The position numbers and the translations under genes are program-made. A stretch of DNA of 23,485 nt from IMG/VR virus record IMGVR_UViG_3300046754_000049, positions 1 through 23,485 of that record, one strand, 5' to 3'. Under the pieces are notes generated by a model. The model was not told the DNA's origin and ran no database searches. It worked only from the letters and a program-made list of their open reading frames with translations. Each line of letters begins with the position of its first letter. The stretch's first letter is position 1. This document shows positions 673-22,743 of the stretch, piece after piece. Source of the stretch: a virus.

Positions 673-3612
673 TTACCCCTTTAATGGCGCTGATGGAATA
701 TTGCTAGTTTCATCGGGAGCGGTGTAGCGAGCTTTGCCTTTGGTAACTCTTAGGTCTTGAATATAACCAGTAAAATGTTCAGGATCTGAAATGCCAATCC
801 AGCGAGCTATTTCTATACCATTTGAACTGCCCGTTGAAATGTTGCTAGTGTTAGTAACTGATGAACCTTCTTGATTCCCATCAATATACAGATTTAAACT
901 ATTACCAGATCTACTTACCGCTATATGCGTCCAAGTGTTAAGACTGTATGAGGTGGTTCCCGTAAATATATTTCCCCCATTCCATATTTTAAAAACACCA
1001 TTTTGAATATACACGCCAAAACTATTTGTATTAGAGTTGGAATTACCCTGCCCAAAAAGATAACTGTAGTTTGACGGATGCGAAGGAATGTAAACCCAAC
1101 ATTCAATAGTAAAATTACCTGTTCCGTAAGTAAAAAGATCACTCGTTGGAGTTAAAATATAATCTCCAGTTCCATCAAACTTCATAGTTTTAGTGTTAGC
1201 CCAAGCCCCTGATCTAACCTGATCAGTTGAACCAGTAGTACTACCTTCCAGCTTCAAGTTAGCGACTTGCGATTTATCAATAATCGAAGCGTCAGTGCCT
1301 TTGATGTGTAGCTCTGCGCCAGATGAAGATAGAGGTGCAGTAGGAGGGATAAAATCTGTTGTGTAATGTGCGGTTCCAATAGCAACCCTTACGTCACTTA
1401 TATAACCATACATATCAGCCGCCGTAGTATTATCTCCGTCTATACCTATAGCAGGACGGGATGAATGGCTTAGGTAATTAGCTGTTGATGCATAGGTTTG
1501 AGTTTGTACCTTACCATTAATATACATTTTTATTGTGCCACTACTTCGCACTAATGCAATATGAAACCAAGAATTTGCAGTTATTAAGTCGTTAGACGCA
1601 ATTCTGTTTGAGTTATTCGCAATAAAATAAATTTTAGAGTCCGAAGATTCAAACTTTAACGTAACATAATCTCCGTTTGTAAATGGTCTAAAATCTATAA
1701 ACATTCGGTCAGAAGTTGTATCAGTAATATACATCCAACCTTCTACAGTCCAATTGGCAGTTCCAAGGTTTGTGCCAGAGTTTCCTAATATATAATCCTG
1801 ATTACCATCAAAATACACAGACCCACCGTGATCTGTTGCTGAATATTCTTCGTAGTCGTAAGGTGAGAATGGTTTTGTCTCAGGGTCGCCATTTATTGTG
1901 ATAGAGCGATCGTTAGTTGATCCATCAGCAATGTATGGTAGGTGGCAAATATGTAATGCTGATCCAGAGGAAGATAGCGGTTTAGTAGGAACGGTAGATG
2001 ACCCAGAAGGAGTACCAGAAACTATTTTAAAATCGAAAACATAACCATTGAGTGGATATCCCGTACTCCAAGCAGAACCTAAGTCGCCTATGTAAAAGGC
2101 ACTGTTAGTTGGTGAATTAGAATTACTTACACTTCCCAATAAAGTTCCATCAACAAAAAACTTTAACGTAGACCCATCCCATTGCAAATCTGTGTAGTAC
2201 CATCTATTAGCGGAAACAGAAGTTGATGCGCCAAGGTTAGCGCTTCCGATCTGAGCAAACCAATTACCACTATCAATCGTTACACCAGTTCTGCCCGAAT
2301 GCCCCGACGTACCTTGACCCCATACAGCGCCATCGGTTGTATCATTTAAATAGACCCACGCCGTTGCAGTGAAGCTAGTTGATGGTATAATTTGAGTTGC
2401 GGTTGTGTTTAAACTATCCCCAGAACCATCAAAGTACGTACTATAACCCCCACTACGATAAGGACTAAACGTACCAGCGTGAGCATCGCCAGTTACTGTA
2501 ATGCTGTGGCTATTAGAGGAGCTATCAGTAATGTTATTATTATCAGATGTACCCGTAGCAGTGGCTAACAGGGTTGTGTGATTACTGTCTAAAACTACAA
2601 ATGCTATTGAAAAACTTTGCGTTTTATTAACCACATTATTACCATCTGACACATCAAATCGAATAGTAATAGTTCCACCCGATCCACTAGTCACAGGCGT
2701 TAATGTAAATGTATTCCCACTTTGATTTGAGATCGGCAAGCTAGGTGAGCTAATCACATTAGATGCTGTGCCGCTCGTTACAGTGGCTGAATAAACCAGA
2801 GTTTCTAAATCAGGTTCAGTGGCAGTAAGTGTGATAACTGTATTGCTTCCAGAAGTAAGCGCAAACGTGCCATTATCCGCAATGGTGGTTGCAGAGCCGC
2901 TACCTGTGGTTTCAGTAAATCCAGAAACCGTTGGTGCAGTGTTCGTGATTGAGGCCAGCAAAAAGAAACCAGAAGTTTGCTTTACATAAAGCTTATTGTT
3001 AGCAGTTTCGTAATGAAGTGACCCTTCACTTGCAGAAGCAGCGTCAGTAAGCATGGCTGCTTGATTAGTGTGAACAGTCACTCCACTACCACTACCACCA
3101 CTTCCACCCGCAGAAGTAGAATACTCAACTACCTCAACAATATCTCCGGCTAAACAAGCAGATATAGTTATCTGTGTGTCAGTAGCAATGACATCACTAT
3201 CAGGCAGCTTTACTCCGTTGAGAAAGACAGAAATATTGTCAGCTTCCCAAGTCCCAGTAAACACCGTTTGACCCGCCGTAGCGGTAAACTTAGTCGTATC
3301 TATTGGATCAATAGATTGGATGTCTTCCGCAGTTGCTCCGATAAATACAATAGCAGAGCCGCTAAGATTAATAGCATTATTTGAGTTGCTGCTTTCGCTT
3401 ACAGTGCGTGTAAGAGTAGTGCCAGAGCTTGTATAGGTGCCGGTGCCTATTTCAAAATTATTACCATCTTCCAGAACGTACCGGCAAACGTCCCCATTTG
3501 CCACGCCAGCATCTGCAAAGGTTTGATATCCAGCCTCTGCAGAGCCAAGCGTAATTGTGCCAGTGCCAGTTGTACTGGTGGACATTTTGGCCCTATTTTT
3601 AAGAATAGGCAT
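673..3612 (-). CDS. Large tail fibre with Ig-like region and three LamG-type modules
   Basis: 979 residues. Residues 1-100 form an N-terminal module (NRAKMSTSTTGTGTITLGSA... GTGTYTSSGTTLTRTV) that I recall at the N-terminus of many marine phage fibres, probably the virion-anchoring part. Residues 108-165 (TATAGQTVF... NGVKL) resemble a second fibre-base domain. Residues 225-340 look like a cadherin- or Ig-like beta domain (TAPTVSG... FDVSDGNN). Three concanavalin/LamG-like units of about 215 residues follow, at about 345-547, 548-763 and 764-979. Each carries a YFDG/VYFDG/KFDG strand, an AWVY/GWMY/ECWVY strand and an FVDG/YING/YIDG strand. Units are joined by PLSSSG linkers, and the protein ends in APLKG. 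LamG folds usually bind glycans or proteins, so this is a strong candidate for host-surface recognition. It starts 11 nt after the upstream stop with an AAAGGA ribosome binding site. Confidence 0.85.
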   Translation of the reverse strand: MPILKNRAKMSTSTTGTGTITLGSAEAGYQTFADAGVANGDVCRYVLEDGNNFEIGTGTYTSSGTTLTRTVSESSNSNNAINLSGSAIVFIGATAEDIQSIDPIDTTKFTATAGQTVFTGTWEADNISVFLNGVKLPDSDVIATDTQITISACLAGDIVEVVEYSTSAGGSGGSGSGVTVHTNQAAMLTDAASASEGSLHYETANNKLYVKQTSGFFLLASITNTAPTVSGFTETTGSGSATTIADNGTFALTSGSNTVITLTATEPDLETLVYSATVTSGTASNVISSPSLPISNQSGNTFTLTPVTSGSGGTITIRFDVSDGNNVVNKTQSFSIAFVVLDSNHTTLLATATGTSDNNNITDSSSNSHSITVTGDAHAGTFSPYRSGGYSTYFDGSGDSLNTTATQIIPSTSFTATAWVYLNDTTDGAVWGQGTSGHSGRTGVTIDSGNWFAQIGSANLGASTSVSANRWYYTDLQWDGSTLKFFVDGTLLGSVSNSNSPTNSAFYIGDLGSAWSTGYPLNGYVFDFKIVSGTPSGSSTVPTKPLSSSGSALHICHLPYIADGSTNDRSITINGDPETKPFSPYDYEEYSATDHGGSVYFDGNQDYILGNSGTNLGTANWTVEGWMYITDTTSDRMFIDFRPFTNGDYVTLKFESSDSKIYFIANNSNRIASNDLITANSWFHIALVRSSGTIKMYINGKVQTQTYASTANYLSHSSRPAIGIDGDNTTAADMYGYISDVRVAIGTAHYTTDFIPPTAPLSSSGAELHIKGTDASIIDKSQVANLKLEGSTTGSTDQVRSGAWANTKTMKFDGTGDYILTPTSDLFTYGTGNFTIECWVYIPSHPSNYSYLFGQGNSNSNTNSFGVYIQNGVFKIWNGGNIFTGTTSYSLNTWTHIAVSRSGNSLNLYIDGNQEGSSVTNTSNISTGSSNGIEIARWIGISDPEHFTGYIQDLRVTKGKARYTAPDETSNIPSAPLKG

Positions 3613-11162: not shown

Positions 11163-11642
11163 CTAGACTGTGGGATTTAAAGGTTTTTGTTTAATTGTTT
11201 GATATTCATAATAGCCAGATGCTAAAGTTGTAAGTGCGCCTATAGTTGCAGATTGCATTGCAGCCCTACCTTCTATTCTTTGTGCAGTTGCTTGTTGTTG
11301 AAGCTTTGAGCCTTTAGCTTCTCCCATATAAGCTATATTATAAAGATCTTCTCCTGTCGTCTCTTTTTGTTTTTTAAAAAAAGCTTCAACAGATCTATCT
11401 AAACCAATATCTCTGCCCATAGCAGCAAACATTGCGCTGTTAGTAGAAGTGTTGGCAATATATTGCTCCCTTCTACTTCTGGAATTTTGAAGAGTTTGAA
11501 TTTTATTTCTTATTTCGTCAGTTTCAACATTAAAAGCATTTAGCTTTGACGCCTCTTGTTGAGCTTTTCCAGCTGCAATTTGACCAAATGCACTCATAAC
11601 AGTTGATCCTATAAGAGCCATTGTTAGTGGATCTATTGCCAT
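11163..11642 (-). CDS. Internal virion protein, gp14-like
   Basis: 159 residues. The N-terminus (MAIDPLTMALIGSTVMSAFG) is a hydrophobic/Gly segment, followed by an Ala/Gln/Lys helical stretch (QIAAGKAQQEASKLNAFNVE) and another small-residue hydrophobic helix near residues 128-145 (MQSATIGALTTLASGYYEYQ). This arrangement of two hydrophobic ends and a charged helical middle is typical of small ejection proteins such as T7 gp14 (196 residues) that enter the outer membrane on infection. The start overlaps the stop of the nozzle gene by 1 nt (TAATG), with only a weak distant ribosome binding site, so translation is probably coupled. It immediately precedes the two large core proteins, as in T7. 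It is a good family-level match in architecture; function is inferred. Confidence 0.75.
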   Translation of the reverse strand: MAIDPLTMALIGSTVMSAFGQIAAGKAQQEASKLNAFNVETDEIRNKIQTLQNSRSRREQYIANTSTNSAMFAAMGRDIGLDRSVEAFFKKQKETTGEDLYNIAYMGEAKGSKLQQQATAQRIEGRAAMQSATIGALTTLASGYYEYQTIKQKPLNPTV

Positions 11643-14563
11643 TAGACTATTAACTCCGCTACTATTCCATTAATCTGTAAGCCTAGTGGCTTGTCTTGCT
11701 CAATAGTTATCTGTGGATTTCTATTGTACCCCAAAGTCTTTATTTCTTTTTTCCCAGTAAAGCTTGAAGCAATAACATCGTTTGAGTTTACCTTCATTGA
11801 TTCTGTTGACTTAACGTCAACAACAATGTTGGTAATTCCCCTTGTTGTGCCAGTCGAAGGTCCATTACCCATGTTTGCATCTATTGGATTGCTTACTAAC
11901 TTAGCAGTAAACTTCTTACCAAACTCAGCACTACTATAAGTATTAATAGCTGCGGTAGAAAAAATTGTATTACCCATAGAGTTGCCATGAACTGTGCAAT
12001 AATACTTAAAACCAGCTGGAGAATCACTTGCTACTACTATAGTAACCTTAGCTCCAGCTTGCCCAGCAGTTCCCGTTGTTGTTACACCAGTTGTATAAGG
12101 TGCATCTGCAGTTGTTCTAAACGCAAAAGGATGTCCAGCGTTTGATGCATCGGAGAGATCAAACACATATGTATTTCCTCTTCCAAGGCTTAGCTGAGGT
12201 GCAGAGCCAGATATGCCAGCTATTGCGTATTTATTACCGCCATCATTTACTACAGTAACTGTATAATTTATAGTTGAAGTAATAGCGTATGAAGACAAAT
12301 CAATGTCATCGTTACTATCTACAGTAAACTCACCTAAGTAAGTATACCCACTAGAAGAAGCATACCCATATACATCAACTAGATCTCCACTGCTATAAAC
12401 ATCACTTGCATCTACCTTGTTGGTAACAACAGATTTACTTTGCCATAAGTCTAAGCCTCTATCTGTATTAAACTCACAGAGATGCAGCTTACCATTACTA
12501 TCGTATACATTTGCAAACAATCTACTGTGTATTGCTATAACAGATCCAAAGTTGCCAGACGTACTAACCCTAGTCCAAGCCGCTCTTTTTTCAGCCCTAT
12601 TAGAAGTAAACAGAATTAAGTCACCATTAGTAAGTGAGAAGGCAGCGTATGAATCTGCAAGCTCAAATCCACTATGAGCTACAGATAAATACTTTGGAGA
12701 ATCAATTAAATGAGAAGCTAGAGTAGAAATAGCAGATGCTGTATATGCATCCTCAGAGTCACTGTATAAGTATTCTCTAATAATTCTACCATTCTTTTGA
12801 ACAAATATAGTTGCACCATCTATAGATGTTGGCGTTACAAACTCTGTACCATATGGTGTTTGCATTCTTATCTGAGCGTTAGTCGGAGTGATTGCTTGGT
12901 TCAAGTAAGTAGGAACATATAGTTCGCCAGTAGAAGTAAACACTTGAAGATCACGATTAGAAATCATGTATCTTATTTCGTGAGAATCACCAGTTGCAGC
13001 AACCAAGTTAATTGAATCATCGTCAGCAGCCTCACCTACATCAAAGTTAAAGAAGCTACCAATCTTACTCATCCATATTGTATCAGGTTCAGATAACGTG
13101 CCGCCAAAGCACAATCTGTTTTCATGGAATACAACAGCAGCAGGGTATCCTCTTACAGCAGAGAATGATTGCTCATCCCATGTTGTTGTTGGAGCATGAC
13201 AAGATATAGACACTTGCCCACCACCATCTTCACTGCTGCTTGCATTACCACCAGCCTGATAGGTGTAGGTATTATCATCTATTATTTCTCTAACCTGATC
13301 TGTAACATTTAAATTACCAGTATTAATCCCACCTGTTGCAGCAGCATTCTGTACTGTAATTGCATCACCTACATTAAGGCCATGATTAATGTGAGTAACC
13401 TCAACTACGTTTGAACCCTCTCTTGTTCTAAGAGGATTTAAAACAGACAGACGAGCAGAAAGTGTATCAACAATATTACCAGTAACTACTGTTGCAGACG
13501 TATAACCAGTAATAGTTATTTCTGACTCATGGTATCTTACAGTTGTTCCGACATGATCTGCTACCCAATAATTAGCACTTGTAGTTAAAGTAATTCCATT
13601 TCCACTTATAGCAGAGGGATCTAACGTAACACCACTAGCATGAAATTTTGAATACGGCTGATAAGTAACCTTATTATCTGCGCGTGTATCAAATGAATAA
13701 GTATCTATTTCAAAAGAAGTAAGACTTGTTCTTGTAAGCAATCTAGGTGCAAACAAAGGATGCGATATAAACATAACATCGCCATATTGAGCAGCAGTAT
13801 ATTCCTGCAAATAGTCTTCATCAAAAGGCAAAGCAGCAGAACTTGTGTCTTGTGTAATTGTAGAAACAAGACTTATTGTGCCATCTGTTAAAAGTCGAAA
13901 GCATCTAACCCTTAAATGCTCTACAGATATAATGTACTCTTCATTGTCATCAAAAATAAATTTAAACAAATGAGATTGATCTGACTTATTTAAGTAATCA
14001 AGTGTAGAAGTAACTCCAACCTTTAAATTAAAATTAGTTGGCGCGGTGTTTATAGAAACAGCAGTTACGGTTTTAAATGATTTTGTGCTAGTGTATGTAG
14101 CAATATTATCATCTAAAGCAATTGCCTCTGTTTGAGCAAGCCCATATATATCCGTGCCAGTAATGGTAAGCGTTAGATTTAATGCTGATGGAATGGGATT
14201 TCCAGCAGATGCGTTATTGTCATTATAAAAAGTAACAAATCTTCCAGCGTTATTAAAAGAAGCAACACCACTAGAAACAAATGTTCCATTTAGCGCAAAG
14301 TTTGTTTGACCACTATTTGTAAACTGAGTAACAATTCCATCATCATCGGCAGTGCCAGTCCCATCAGAAGCCTTATATGTTAATCCATAATCATATATAT
14401 GTTTTAAGCCTGTTCTCTTCTTTACAGACCCCTCGCTCATAACAATTAAGTTTTCTAATCGTTGAGCCGACTGTCCATAAACAGGTGAATCCGTTCTCAT
14501 TATTAATGAGTCACTGATTTCTCCATACTGAAAGCTGTTAATTGGAACTCTTACTTTCTGCAT
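11642..14563 (-). CDS. Tail nozzle protein (tail tubular protein B, gp12-like) with inserted domains
   Basis: 973 residues; T7 gp12 has 794. The N-terminus (PINSFQYGEISDSLIMRTDS... QSAQRLENLIVMSEGSVKKR) is the characteristic opening of tail tubular protein B, and residues 470-500 (GYPAAVVFHENRLCFGG... DTIWMSKIG) form the usual central motif. The final 100 residues (about 880-973) resemble the nozzle C-terminus. The extra length appears as three modules: about 66-186 (a beta domain with ITGTDIYGLAQTEAI and TSTKSFKTVT), about 383-452 (NVVEVTHINHGLNVGDAITV), and about 766-870, a cupredoxin-like domain listed separately. The protein forms the distal end of the short tail, below the gp11-like adaptor encoded just upstream. 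Start and upstream stop overlap by 1 nt (TAATG), with AAAGG eight nt upstream. The family call is strong; the module boundaries are estimates. Confidence 0.9.
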   Translation of the reverse strand: MQKVRVPINSFQYGEISDSLIMRTDSPVYGQSAQRLENLIVMSEGSVKKRTGLKHIYDYGLTYKASDGTGTADDDGIVTQFTNSGQTNFALNGTFVSSGVASFNNAGRFVTFYNDNNASAGNPIPSALNLTLTITGTDIYGLAQTEAIALDDNIATYTSTKSFKTVTAVSINTAPTNFNLKVGVTSTLDYLNKSDQSHLFKFIFDDNEEYIISVEHLRVRCFRLLTDGTISLVSTITQDTSSAALPFDEDYLQEYTAAQYGDVMFISHPLFAPRLLTRTSLTSFEIDTYSFDTRADNKVTYQPYSKFHASGVTLDPSAISGNGITLTTSANYWVADHVGTTVRYHESEITITGYTSATVVTGNIVDTLSARLSVLNPLRTREGSNVVEVTHINHGLNVGDAITVQNAAATGGINTGNLNVTDQVREIIDDNTYTYQAGGNASSSEDGGGQVSISCHAPTTTWDEQSFSAVRGYPAAVVFHENRLCFGGTLSEPDTIWMSKIGSFFNFDVGEAADDDSINLVAATGDSHEIRYMISNRDLQVFTSTGELYVPTYLNQAITPTNAQIRMQTPYGTEFVTPTSIDGATIFVQKNGRIIREYLYSDSEDAYTASAISTLASHLIDSPKYLSVAHSGFELADSYAAFSLTNGDLILFTSNRAEKRAAWTRVSTSGNFGSVIAIHSRLFANVYDSNGKLHLCEFNTDRGLDLWQSKSVVTNKVDASDVYSSGDLVDVYGYASSSGYTYLGEFTVDSNDDIDLSSYAITSTINYTVTVVNDGGNKYAIAGISGSAPQLSLGRGNTYVFDLSDASNAGHPFAFRTTADAPYTTGVTTTGTAGQAGAKVTIVVASDSPAGFKYYCTVHGNSMGNTIFSTAAINTYSSAEFGKKFTAKLVSNPIDANMGNGPSTGTTRGITNIVVDVKSTESMKVNSNDVIASSFTGKKEIKTLGYNRNPQITIEQDKPLGLQINGIVAELIV
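11954..12268 (-). other. Cupredoxin-like domain within the tail nozzle protein
   Basis: Residues about 766-870 of the nozzle protein. The segment reads as beta strands (INYTVTVV, NTYVFDLSD), then HPFAF, and later KYYCTVHGNSMG. His811, Cys856, His859 and Met863 match the order of the four type 1 copper ligands of small blue copper proteins. The spacing is 45 residues from His to Cys, 3 from Cys to His and 4 from His to Met; plastocyanin has 47, 3 and 5. It lies between nozzle segments IDLSS and EFGKKFTAKLVSNPI, so it looks like a loop insertion. I recall similar sequences in other marine viral structural proteins. Metal binding is inferred, not shown. Confidence 0.65.
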
Positions 14564-15147
14564 TAACTGCGCCTTTCAGCAATAAACCTCGATGTTGTTA
14601 GCTTGCGCGTTGTTTGTTGCTGAGAATCAATGTTCCTAGCCTTCATAAACAATGCCGCAGCTTTCTGCTCCATTAACTGAGCAAGCTGTGCATCTCTAGC
14701 TAAAGAGATTGCAAAGGAACCAGCAAGAGTAAACTCAATTGCTGTAGTAAAGTAAGAAGGCCAGCTAGACTCAGGCGCTCTCTCAACATAATCTAAGACA
14801 ACGGTATCGTTTGTATCCGCGTCACAGAATATTTTATTACCATAGATATCGTACTTAATTAATGCATCGTTAATAGTTGCGCTTATTACTGTAACGCAAG
14901 ATGCTGGAATATGATAAGACGCTGAGAACCTACCCTTAGGAGCGGTTGCTAAACGTGTAAGATTTATTTGAGTTGTAGCAAAGCGCCAACGAAAAGAAGC
15001 AAATGAAGTCTGTATTATATCTTCATATAAAGCATTAGCTACTTTTGCTTCAGATGTACTAGCTGCAAAGTCGGTAATCCCGTCAGCACCAATAAGATAT
15101 AATGCGTTACTTGCAACTTCTAATGATGAATCAGCTACTCTTGGCAT
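14563..15147 (-). CDS. Tail adaptor (tail tubular protein A, gp11-like)
   Basis: 194 residues, close to T7 gp11 (196). The N-terminal half (EVASNALYLIGADGITDF followed by VANALYEDIIQTSFASFRWRFA) is typical of tail tubular protein A, which sits as a ring between portal and nozzle. A small beta region follows (YDIYGNKIFCDADTNDTVVLDYV), then a long C-terminal helical part (FAISLARDAQLAQLMEQKAA). It is followed directly by the gp12-like nozzle gene with a 1-nt overlap, the same order as T7 genes 11 and 12. Its leader is unusual: the strong Shine-Dalgarno sequence is separated from the ATG by a stable hairpin (see the separate entry). The ATG at 15147 is chosen because the family normally begins with an 'xxxVADSSLEVA'-type sequence. 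Confident call. Confidence 0.88.
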   Translation of the reverse strand: MPRVADSSLEVASNALYLIGADGITDFAASTSEAKVANALYEDIIQTSFASFRWRFATTQINLTRLATAPKGRFSASYHIPASCVTVISATINDALIKYDIYGNKIFCDADTNDTVVLDYVERAPESSWPSYFTTAIEFTLAGSFAISLARDAQLAQLMEQKAAALFMKARNIDSQQQTTRKLTTSRFIAERRS

Positions 15148-22253: not shown

Positions 22254-22259
22254 AGCTAT
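22243..22259 (-). repeat. Start-region repeat, copy 2 (17 bp)
   Basis: Identical to 19601-19617 on the same strand. It covers the last bases of the HNH gene (its TAG stop lies within), the two-base spacer, and the first four codons of the 61-residue MCFG gene. Confidence 0.8.
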
Positions 22260-22522
22260 GCCTTTCCCGCATTCTTATTGCGCTTAATAGATCTATTCAC
22301 AGCCCTGCCAACAACTCTTAGATTACCTTTAGAATTATCTCTTGGGTTTCCGTTCTTGTGGTCAACGTCCTTGCCATCACCACGCTTGGCAATACCAGCT
22401 TGCTCCATCTTGTAGCGAGCCTTCTTACGCTTGCGATTATCCTCCATTCGCTTAGAAGACTTGTCGTACTTGCCCTCACCAGCCTTAGAATAATCCCGAA
22501 CATAATTCCTGCTACTGGGCAT
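22256..22522 (-). CDS. HNH endonuclease, packaging-associated
   Basis: 88 residues from the ATG at 22522. An in-frame ATG four codons upstream (22534) exists, but 22522 gives a TAATG junction with the preceding gene, a GGAAG ribosome binding site five nt away, and the usual 'MPxxxxNYxRDY' type of start. A basic helical N-terminal half (KRMEDNRKRKKARYKMEQAG) precedes the nuclease core GDGKDVDHKNGNPRDNSKGN with DH at 54-55, Asn67 in GNLRV, and Asn76 in RAVNRS. These fit the His-Asn-Asn form of the HNH motif. HNH proteins beside terminases are known to assist terminase cleavage in HK97-like phages, so a role in cutting packaged DNA is likely. A homing-type nuclease is the alternative. Confidence 0.83.
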   Translation of the reverse strand: MPSSRNYVRDYSKAGEGKYDKSSKRMEDNRKRKKARYKMEQAGIAKRGDGKDVDHKNGNPRDNSKGNLRVVGRAVNRSIKRNKNAGKA

Positions 22523-22743
22523 TAACACTTCCACTTTCGTAAAGCTAAAGCCTTTCTAGTAGGACGACCCTTTTTATCTTTCATTGGCCCCTTAACGCCA
22601 CCCATTCTAGCGCAAAAAGATTTCTTTCTAGGGCCGCCTTCAGGTTGAGGCCGCTTTAAATTAGCGCCAGTTTTATTCTTAAAATATCTACGACCAGCGG
22701 CGTTTAAACCACCCTCAGGATTCTGATATTTTTTTGCGACCAT
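22522..22743 (-). CDS. Small basic Cys-containing protein (73 aa)
   Basis: 73 residues. The signature is GGLNAAGRRYFKNKTGANLK (11-30), then RKKSFCARMGGVKGPMKDKK (39-58), and a terminal ALRKWKC. I recall proteins with the 'GLNAxGRxxFxxxTGxNLK' and 'KSFCARM' pattern in many marine phages and some large viruses, always without known function. Two Cys (44 and 73) and many Lys/Arg are present; a nucleic-acid-binding role is possible, but a metal site is not evident. The stop overlaps the HNH start by 1 nt (TAATG). The start lies inside the end of the preceding 36-residue frame. The gene is confident because the signature is so recognisable; the function is unknown. Confidence 0.8.
   Translation of the reverse strand: MVAKKYQNPEGGLNAAGRRYFKNKTGANLKRPQPEGGPRKKSFCARMGGVKGPMKDKKGRPTRKALALRKWKC

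Follow-up and report, generated by a model that had tools for sequence, protein, structure and literature searches.

Ephrins are cupredoxin folds that have lost their copper and are used for binding, while plastocyanin, a copper-bearing cupredoxin, has an Asn after its first His ligand. On phage particles, Ig-like decorations are small mobile beta-sandwiches that occur across unrelated structural proteins. In the tail nozzle protein gp12 of the podophage T7, N-terminal platform strands are followed by the propeller, the fibre dock and the C-terminal platform, with the tip emerging from propeller blade 3 and the fibre dock lying on the outer surface (PMC6702177). Here we analysed an IMG/VR viral record of 23,485 bases (hereafter the window) whose nozzle protein appears to carry a cupredoxin-type domain with a putative copper site.

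Results

The window contains a podophage structural block comprising a terminase, a portal-type head-tail protein, a major capsid protein, an adaptor and a nozzle. The last two genes are located as follows:

11642..14563, minus strand: tail nozzle gene (T7 gp12 type), 973 aa, insert-bearing (PHROG 376, 8ck1, Foldseek)
14563..15147, minus strand: gene of a gp11-like, adaptor-type tail protein, immediately upstream of that of the nozzle (PHROG 394 and PHROG 9239)

The nozzle matched PHROG 376 (tail) with an E value of 3.7e-88 and the Carin1 Tail Nozzle (PDB 8ck1) with an E value of 8.8e-25, and the top 17 PDB matches of the full nozzle model in Foldseek were all podophage tail complex chains (17/17). 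The protein is thus linked to solved T7 gp12-type nozzles by both sequence and structure, and the tail nozzle identity given in a preliminary description of this DNA is confirmed. For the adaptor-type protein, the matches were to the tail family PHROG 394 (E 6.2e-36) and, with an E value of 1.9e-6, to PHROG 9239 (tail tubular protein). The closest relative of the terminase and the portal was Pelagibacter phage Hodr (66.7% and 63.0% identity, respectively), which makes a SAR11-type host likely for the window phage.

Elsewhere in the window, a 979-aa protein (673-3612, minus strand) contains three Laminin_G_3 domains and is probably a tail fibre or appendage, a further swappable surface module of the same phage. 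Nozzle residues 385-445 (window about 13229-13411) gave a weak match, under the cut-off, to PF12195 (endosialidase beta-barrel, E 2.9e-4); endosialidase structures were also found among the Foldseek matches of the full nozzle model. Upstream of the packaging genes, a small ORF (22256-22534, minus strand) includes the HNH-like stretch DVDHKNGNPRDNSKGNLRVV, judged by eye.

The domain under study had been proposed to be a loop insertion in the nozzle, and this was borne out by aligning nozzles with and without it. Its borders are given below:

11933..12295, minus strand: the insertion as a whole, nozzle residues about 757-877 (carrier nozzles aligned with nozzles that lack it)
11948..12265, minus strand: cupredoxin domain, nozzle residues 767-872 (AlphaFold2 and Foldseek)

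The exact borders of the insert vary with the alignment used, the span originally put forward being 11954-12268 (nozzle residues 766 to about 870). The insert starts after the propeller and leaves about 97 residues to the nozzle C-terminus; the strands predicted on its two sides are 739-747 and 878-884. Because the fibre dock and then the platform follow the propeller in the sequence order of T7 gp12, the insert would lie in the post-propeller fibre-dock region of the nozzle, on its outer surface, and not at the tip. Exposure at the tail tip, as initially suggested, was not confirmed and is disfavoured, the gp12 order arguing for the fibre dock or the platform (PMC6702177). The full nozzle model, built without the alignment rows that hold the domain alone (such rows were misplaced in the nozzle alignment), had a pLDDT of 61.6; it was poor within the insert and too weak to place the insert in three dimensions.

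We sought to characterize the fold of the isolated domain. The AlphaFold2 model obtained with 40 homologues was a beta-sandwich with a pLDDT of 93.2 and a pTM of 0.86. Searching the PDB with this model by Foldseek placed three-domain copper nitrite reductase first (TMq 0.64-0.65), followed by plastocyanin, rusticyanin and multicopper oxidases. Cupredoxins made up 39 of the 50 PDB matches listed (best TMq 0.65, probability 1.00), and the non-cupredoxin matches among these 50 were to the SO1698 peptidase, to Ig domains of titin and to one further structure. The best E value against the PDB was only 2.6e-3, with no match at E 1e-3, and the search against predicted viral structures returned 64 matches at E 1e-3, many of them in cyanophage tail proteins. 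The predicted model shows a Greek-key beta-sandwich like that of plastocyanin, with the first His before strand 49-53, the Cys ending strand 87-92 and the Met starting the last strand. On the strength of this model and its matches to copper proteins, we assign the domain with confidence to the cupredoxin-type fold that had been suspected from the sequence.

Profile searches against cupredoxin families yielded a weak alignment with PF00127 and no significant match; this weakness, like the modest Foldseek E values, weighs against the reading proposed below. The window domain gave no match to Pfam PF00127 (Copper-bind), and the best family member reached a weak E value of 0.016-0.026, short of the curated cut-off. 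With hhalign, the Cys-x2-His of the domain was aligned with the Cys-x-Pro-His of PF00127 proteins (P 1.9e-4 to 4.5e-4, probability 33-48%). Sequence searches of the PDB with the domain gave chance-level or weak matches only, such as that of the HP motif to the copper oxidase 6vox by profile (E 0.3-0.55), and none of the Pfam or NCBIfam models searched matches the domain family. Four members of alignment A8 gave matches to PF25489, the At5g54830-like domain of plants (best E 3.5e-4), which may be a distant relative in eukaryotes.

Four residues of the domain could form a type 1 copper site:

12131..12133, minus strand: His811, first putative copper ligand (GHPFAF); His in 188/195 domains
11996..11998, minus strand: Cys856, putative copper ligand; Cys in 188/195 domains
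11987..11989, minus strand: His859, putative copper ligand; His in 188/195 domains
11975..11977, minus strand: Met863, putative axial ligand; Met in 195/195 domains

The coordinates thus place all four ligands where they had been read from the sequence, and their order and spacing, His...Cys-x2-His-x(2-3)-Met, are those of blue copper proteins. Across the family, the order His, Cys, His and axial Met or Gln was found with the Cys-x2-His-x(2-4)-Met arrangement of type 1 copper sites. The His-Cys spacing is mostly 44-51, and x2 and x3 between the second His and Met occur in nearly equal shares; His-to-Met spacing is as short in amicyanin. In two SAR86 members the axial Met is replaced by Gln, a substitution known from stellacyanin.

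The preliminary description had also called for the ligand set to be conserved among homologues. H-C-H-M was found in 187 of 197 distinct homologous domains, a conservation that puts the ligand set beyond chance; three of the remaining ten are cut by the sequence end and seven read N/F/I-S-L-M. Some of our search patterns included the Cys and the His, so a control scan was run with a ligand-free query: of its 63 distinct matches, 49 contain C-x2-H-x(2-4)-M, 14 lack both the Cys and the second His, and no match was mixed. Over 274 phage and cellular domains these two residues were both kept in 253, both lost in 21 and never split. On a tree of 71 representatives built with the ligand columns removed, the Cys and the second His each change three times and the first His twice, the correlated loss amounting to about three events, too few for significance.

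The Cys and second His have been lost together in two phage sub-families. Members of one (L061, L068-L081, L299-L303, L313, L368) read YYSTALAGMG or YYNSL.. at this place, and members of the other (L332, L339, L347, L352-L359) read YYYSSGGGTYG and keep the first His. Hence both versions initially envisaged for this domain, copper-type and ex-copper, are present in the family. The persistence of ligand-less members means that copper is dispensable for some uses of the fold. The conserved, all-or-none nature of the site argues for a bound metal in most copies, and with these ligands copper is the metal to be expected. These data are consistent with a type 1-like copper site in the nozzle and with putative copper binding in the virion.

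Some records annotate the domain as immunoglobulin-like, in which case its CxxH would be fortuitous. The P-HM1 homologue is annotated as containing PF07686, the MED4-213 protein found among the predicted viral structure matches is named immunoglobulin domain-containing, and weak PDB profile matches to antibody chains arise via YYC. However, two scans, covering 22 and 18 members at E values up to 1 and up to 0.5, gave no match to PF07686. The Ig V-set has two cysteines that form its core disulfide, whereas 247 of the 250 intact domains contain only one Cys, which excludes such a bond. Matches to Ig folds in Foldseek were few and weaker (titin, TMq 0.39-0.41) than those to cupredoxins (up to 0.65), and the joint retention or loss of the Cys and second His also speaks against a chance motif. 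We consider the Ig assignment very improbable, and rejected it on the single Cys and the predicted fold.

We compared the nozzle with its relatives. The domain is absent from five nozzles (L100, L086, L113, L090 and L089) that are 72-81% identical to that of the window over the nozzle; in L032 it lies one loop away, preceding the YLG/YSLG strand rather than following it, and in L099 and L102 other sequence or domains occupy that loop. In other phages, the domain recurs at 88-90% amino-acid identity in a 608-aa protein (L012-type; PHROG 3287, virion structural protein). The 150 bases on either side of these copies are only 25-33% identical to the window in ungapped comparison, and the flanks are on that account unrelated. 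In the distant nozzle L029, the domain is found near the C-terminus, with 86% identity. As judged from these comparisons, the domain is a mobile module exchanged between unrelated tail proteins. Between the window and L012-type copies, dN was about 0.06 and dS about 1.1-2.4, the larger dS values being near saturation; these rates indicate that the domain is under strong purifying selection.

A second mobile module was noted in the same nozzle at residues ~68-191 (window about 13991-14362). It is absent at its own site from most relatives; a related stretch (38-42% identical) lies near residue 326 in L100, L113 and L125, and a further one resembling it near the L029 C-terminus.

A consensus query picked out 98 of 50,697 phage records, in which the named carriers were almost all marine cyanophages, pelagiphages and methylophages. 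The carrier proteins are annotated as fibres, baseplate proteins and virion proteins, and the domain is present in baseplate wedge tail fibre connectors as well as in tail fibres. Two scans of IMG/VR gave at least 554 and at least 581 confirmed stretches. The idea of a virus-only module was rejected: a strict pattern scan of genomes found 3 loci, but a profile search of the order of a SAR86 cluster bacterium gave a match in 70 of its 151 genomes. The carriers there include proteins of about 180 aa and 320 aa with lipobox-like N-termini and intact ligands, and giant proteins of about 3,500 aa, one of which (L408) combines an intact copy with a ligand-less one.

Carrier loci in this order are L403, L405, L412, L415, L416 and L419, together with L404 and L406-L411; the small proteins with lipobox-like N-termini also have poly-Gly linkers. 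The weakest domain matches (E 1e-6 to 1e-10) came from a uniform set of SAR86 proteins of about 636 aa, e.g. G114:C4:42294-42578, which may be another cupredoxin-containing protein.

Discussion

The above findings suggest a role in contact or adhesion rather than in electron transfer. The domain is an exchangeable, surface-exposed beta-sandwich found repeatedly on nozzles, fibres and connectors and on surface-type proteins of bacteria, for which display or contact is the most likely function. We give roughly even chances to a copper-site cupredoxin that serves as an interchangeable decoration contacting the host or the fibres and does not carry electrons. In this model, a mobile cupredoxin with a type 1-like site would insert into a surface loop of the post-propeller (fibre dock) region, and the hexameric nozzle would then present six copies around the tail. 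The metal site would fix the His and the Cys-His-Met loops of a rigid beta-sandwich and would give shape to an exposed face, by which the tail could bind the host surface or its own fibres weakly and multivalently.

The same decoration could work by binding alone, its site empty or holding zinc or another structural metal, with no copper chemistry. Members without the ligands have persisted among phages as well as in a giant protein of SAR86, and copper-less cupredoxin folds serve as binding modules elsewhere, as in the ephrins; however, the complete site is kept under purifying selection in the nozzle-borne copies seen and in >90% of the family, and we regard this reading as rather unlikely. 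The post-propeller position adjoining the fibre dock, by T7 gp12 homology, and the occurrence of the domain in baseplate wedge tail fibre connectors would also fit a fibre-docking or virion-stability latch, in which a thiolate-metal site would form in oxic seawater once the host has lysed, making the tail stiffer. Close relatives manage without the domain, though, and its other carriers include further tail proteins as well as surface-type proteins of bacteria, to which no fibre attaches, so that such a latch seems distinctly improbable.

A metal Trojan horse, in which a host receptor for metal uptake would recognise the domain with its copper, would suit the marine setting, and an iron version for phage tails has already been proposed as the Ferrojan horse hypothesis (Bonnain et al. 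2016, as cited in PMC11705849). Given the widely differing hosts, and with no link to a copper receptor seen, we hold it to be very unlikely. An electron-transfer or redox-sensing domain can invoke the ligand set, which is that of electron-transfer blue copper proteins; yet the virion seems to offer no redox partner, nor does a mobile module standing alone at the surface point to an electron pathway, making this role scarcely plausible. Returning to the swappable contact decoration, a bolder and unlikely extension is that copper-loaded mobile cupredoxins are common to marine phage tails and bacterial surfaces, the tail copper aiding adsorption or the locking of the virion after release. If true, copper-loaded tail and cell-surface cupredoxins would form a metalloprotein decoration system of an undescribed kind.

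A widespread marine phage tail module, sometimes called Ig-like, is thereby recognised as a cupredoxin with an intact copper-type site, and SAR86 surface-type proteins are seen to share it. The domain is a marker for module exchange among unrelated tail proteins, and a role of the metal in adsorption or virion stability is testable in the cultured Pelagibacter phage Baldr, Methylophilales phage Melnitz and cyanophages. Our search of the open literature, with most subscription journals outside its scope, found no description of a cupredoxin or copper-binding domain on phage tails; a paper on a viral NirK enzyme concerns a different thing, not a tail domain. The fold is known, and what appears to be new is the mobile phage-tail and SAR86 family with an intact site, unmatched by Pfam or NCBIfam, for which a prior description is possible.

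Among known systems, the small blue copper proteins (plastocyanin/PF00127, amicyanin and rusticyanin) resemble the phage domain in predicted fold, ligand order and spacing, and the Cys-x2-His pairing. The phage domain differs in having Pro after the first His and shows no significant sequence match to them; they are soluble electron carriers, whereas the domain described here is inserted in phage tail proteins. The cupredoxin domains of copper nitrite reductase and multicopper oxidases gave the best Foldseek matches and the weak 6vox profile match, but the phage domain is single and has no enzyme partner domains, and ligands for type 2 or type 3 copper were not seen in it. T7 gp12-type nozzles (8ck1 from Carin1, 9efk from LME-1, and T7) match the carrier protein in sequence and structure, but the domain profile gives no cupredoxin match on those solved chains. 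The Ig-like decorations on tail and capsid proteins of phages resemble the domain in its proposed role, but the domain differs from them in its cupredoxin-type fold, single Cys and conserved metal ligands. The SAR86 lipoprotein-like cupredoxin proteins carry the same domain with intact ligands, but are cellular, with a lipobox-like N-terminus or of giant size. By sequence, the cyanophage and pelagiphage fibre and baseplate-connector modules (PHROGs 30742, 677, 693, 708 and 32294), which occur in phage genomes already deposited, are the same domain; these are annotated as tail fibre, virion structural or Ig-containing, whereas the window copy sits in a nozzle.
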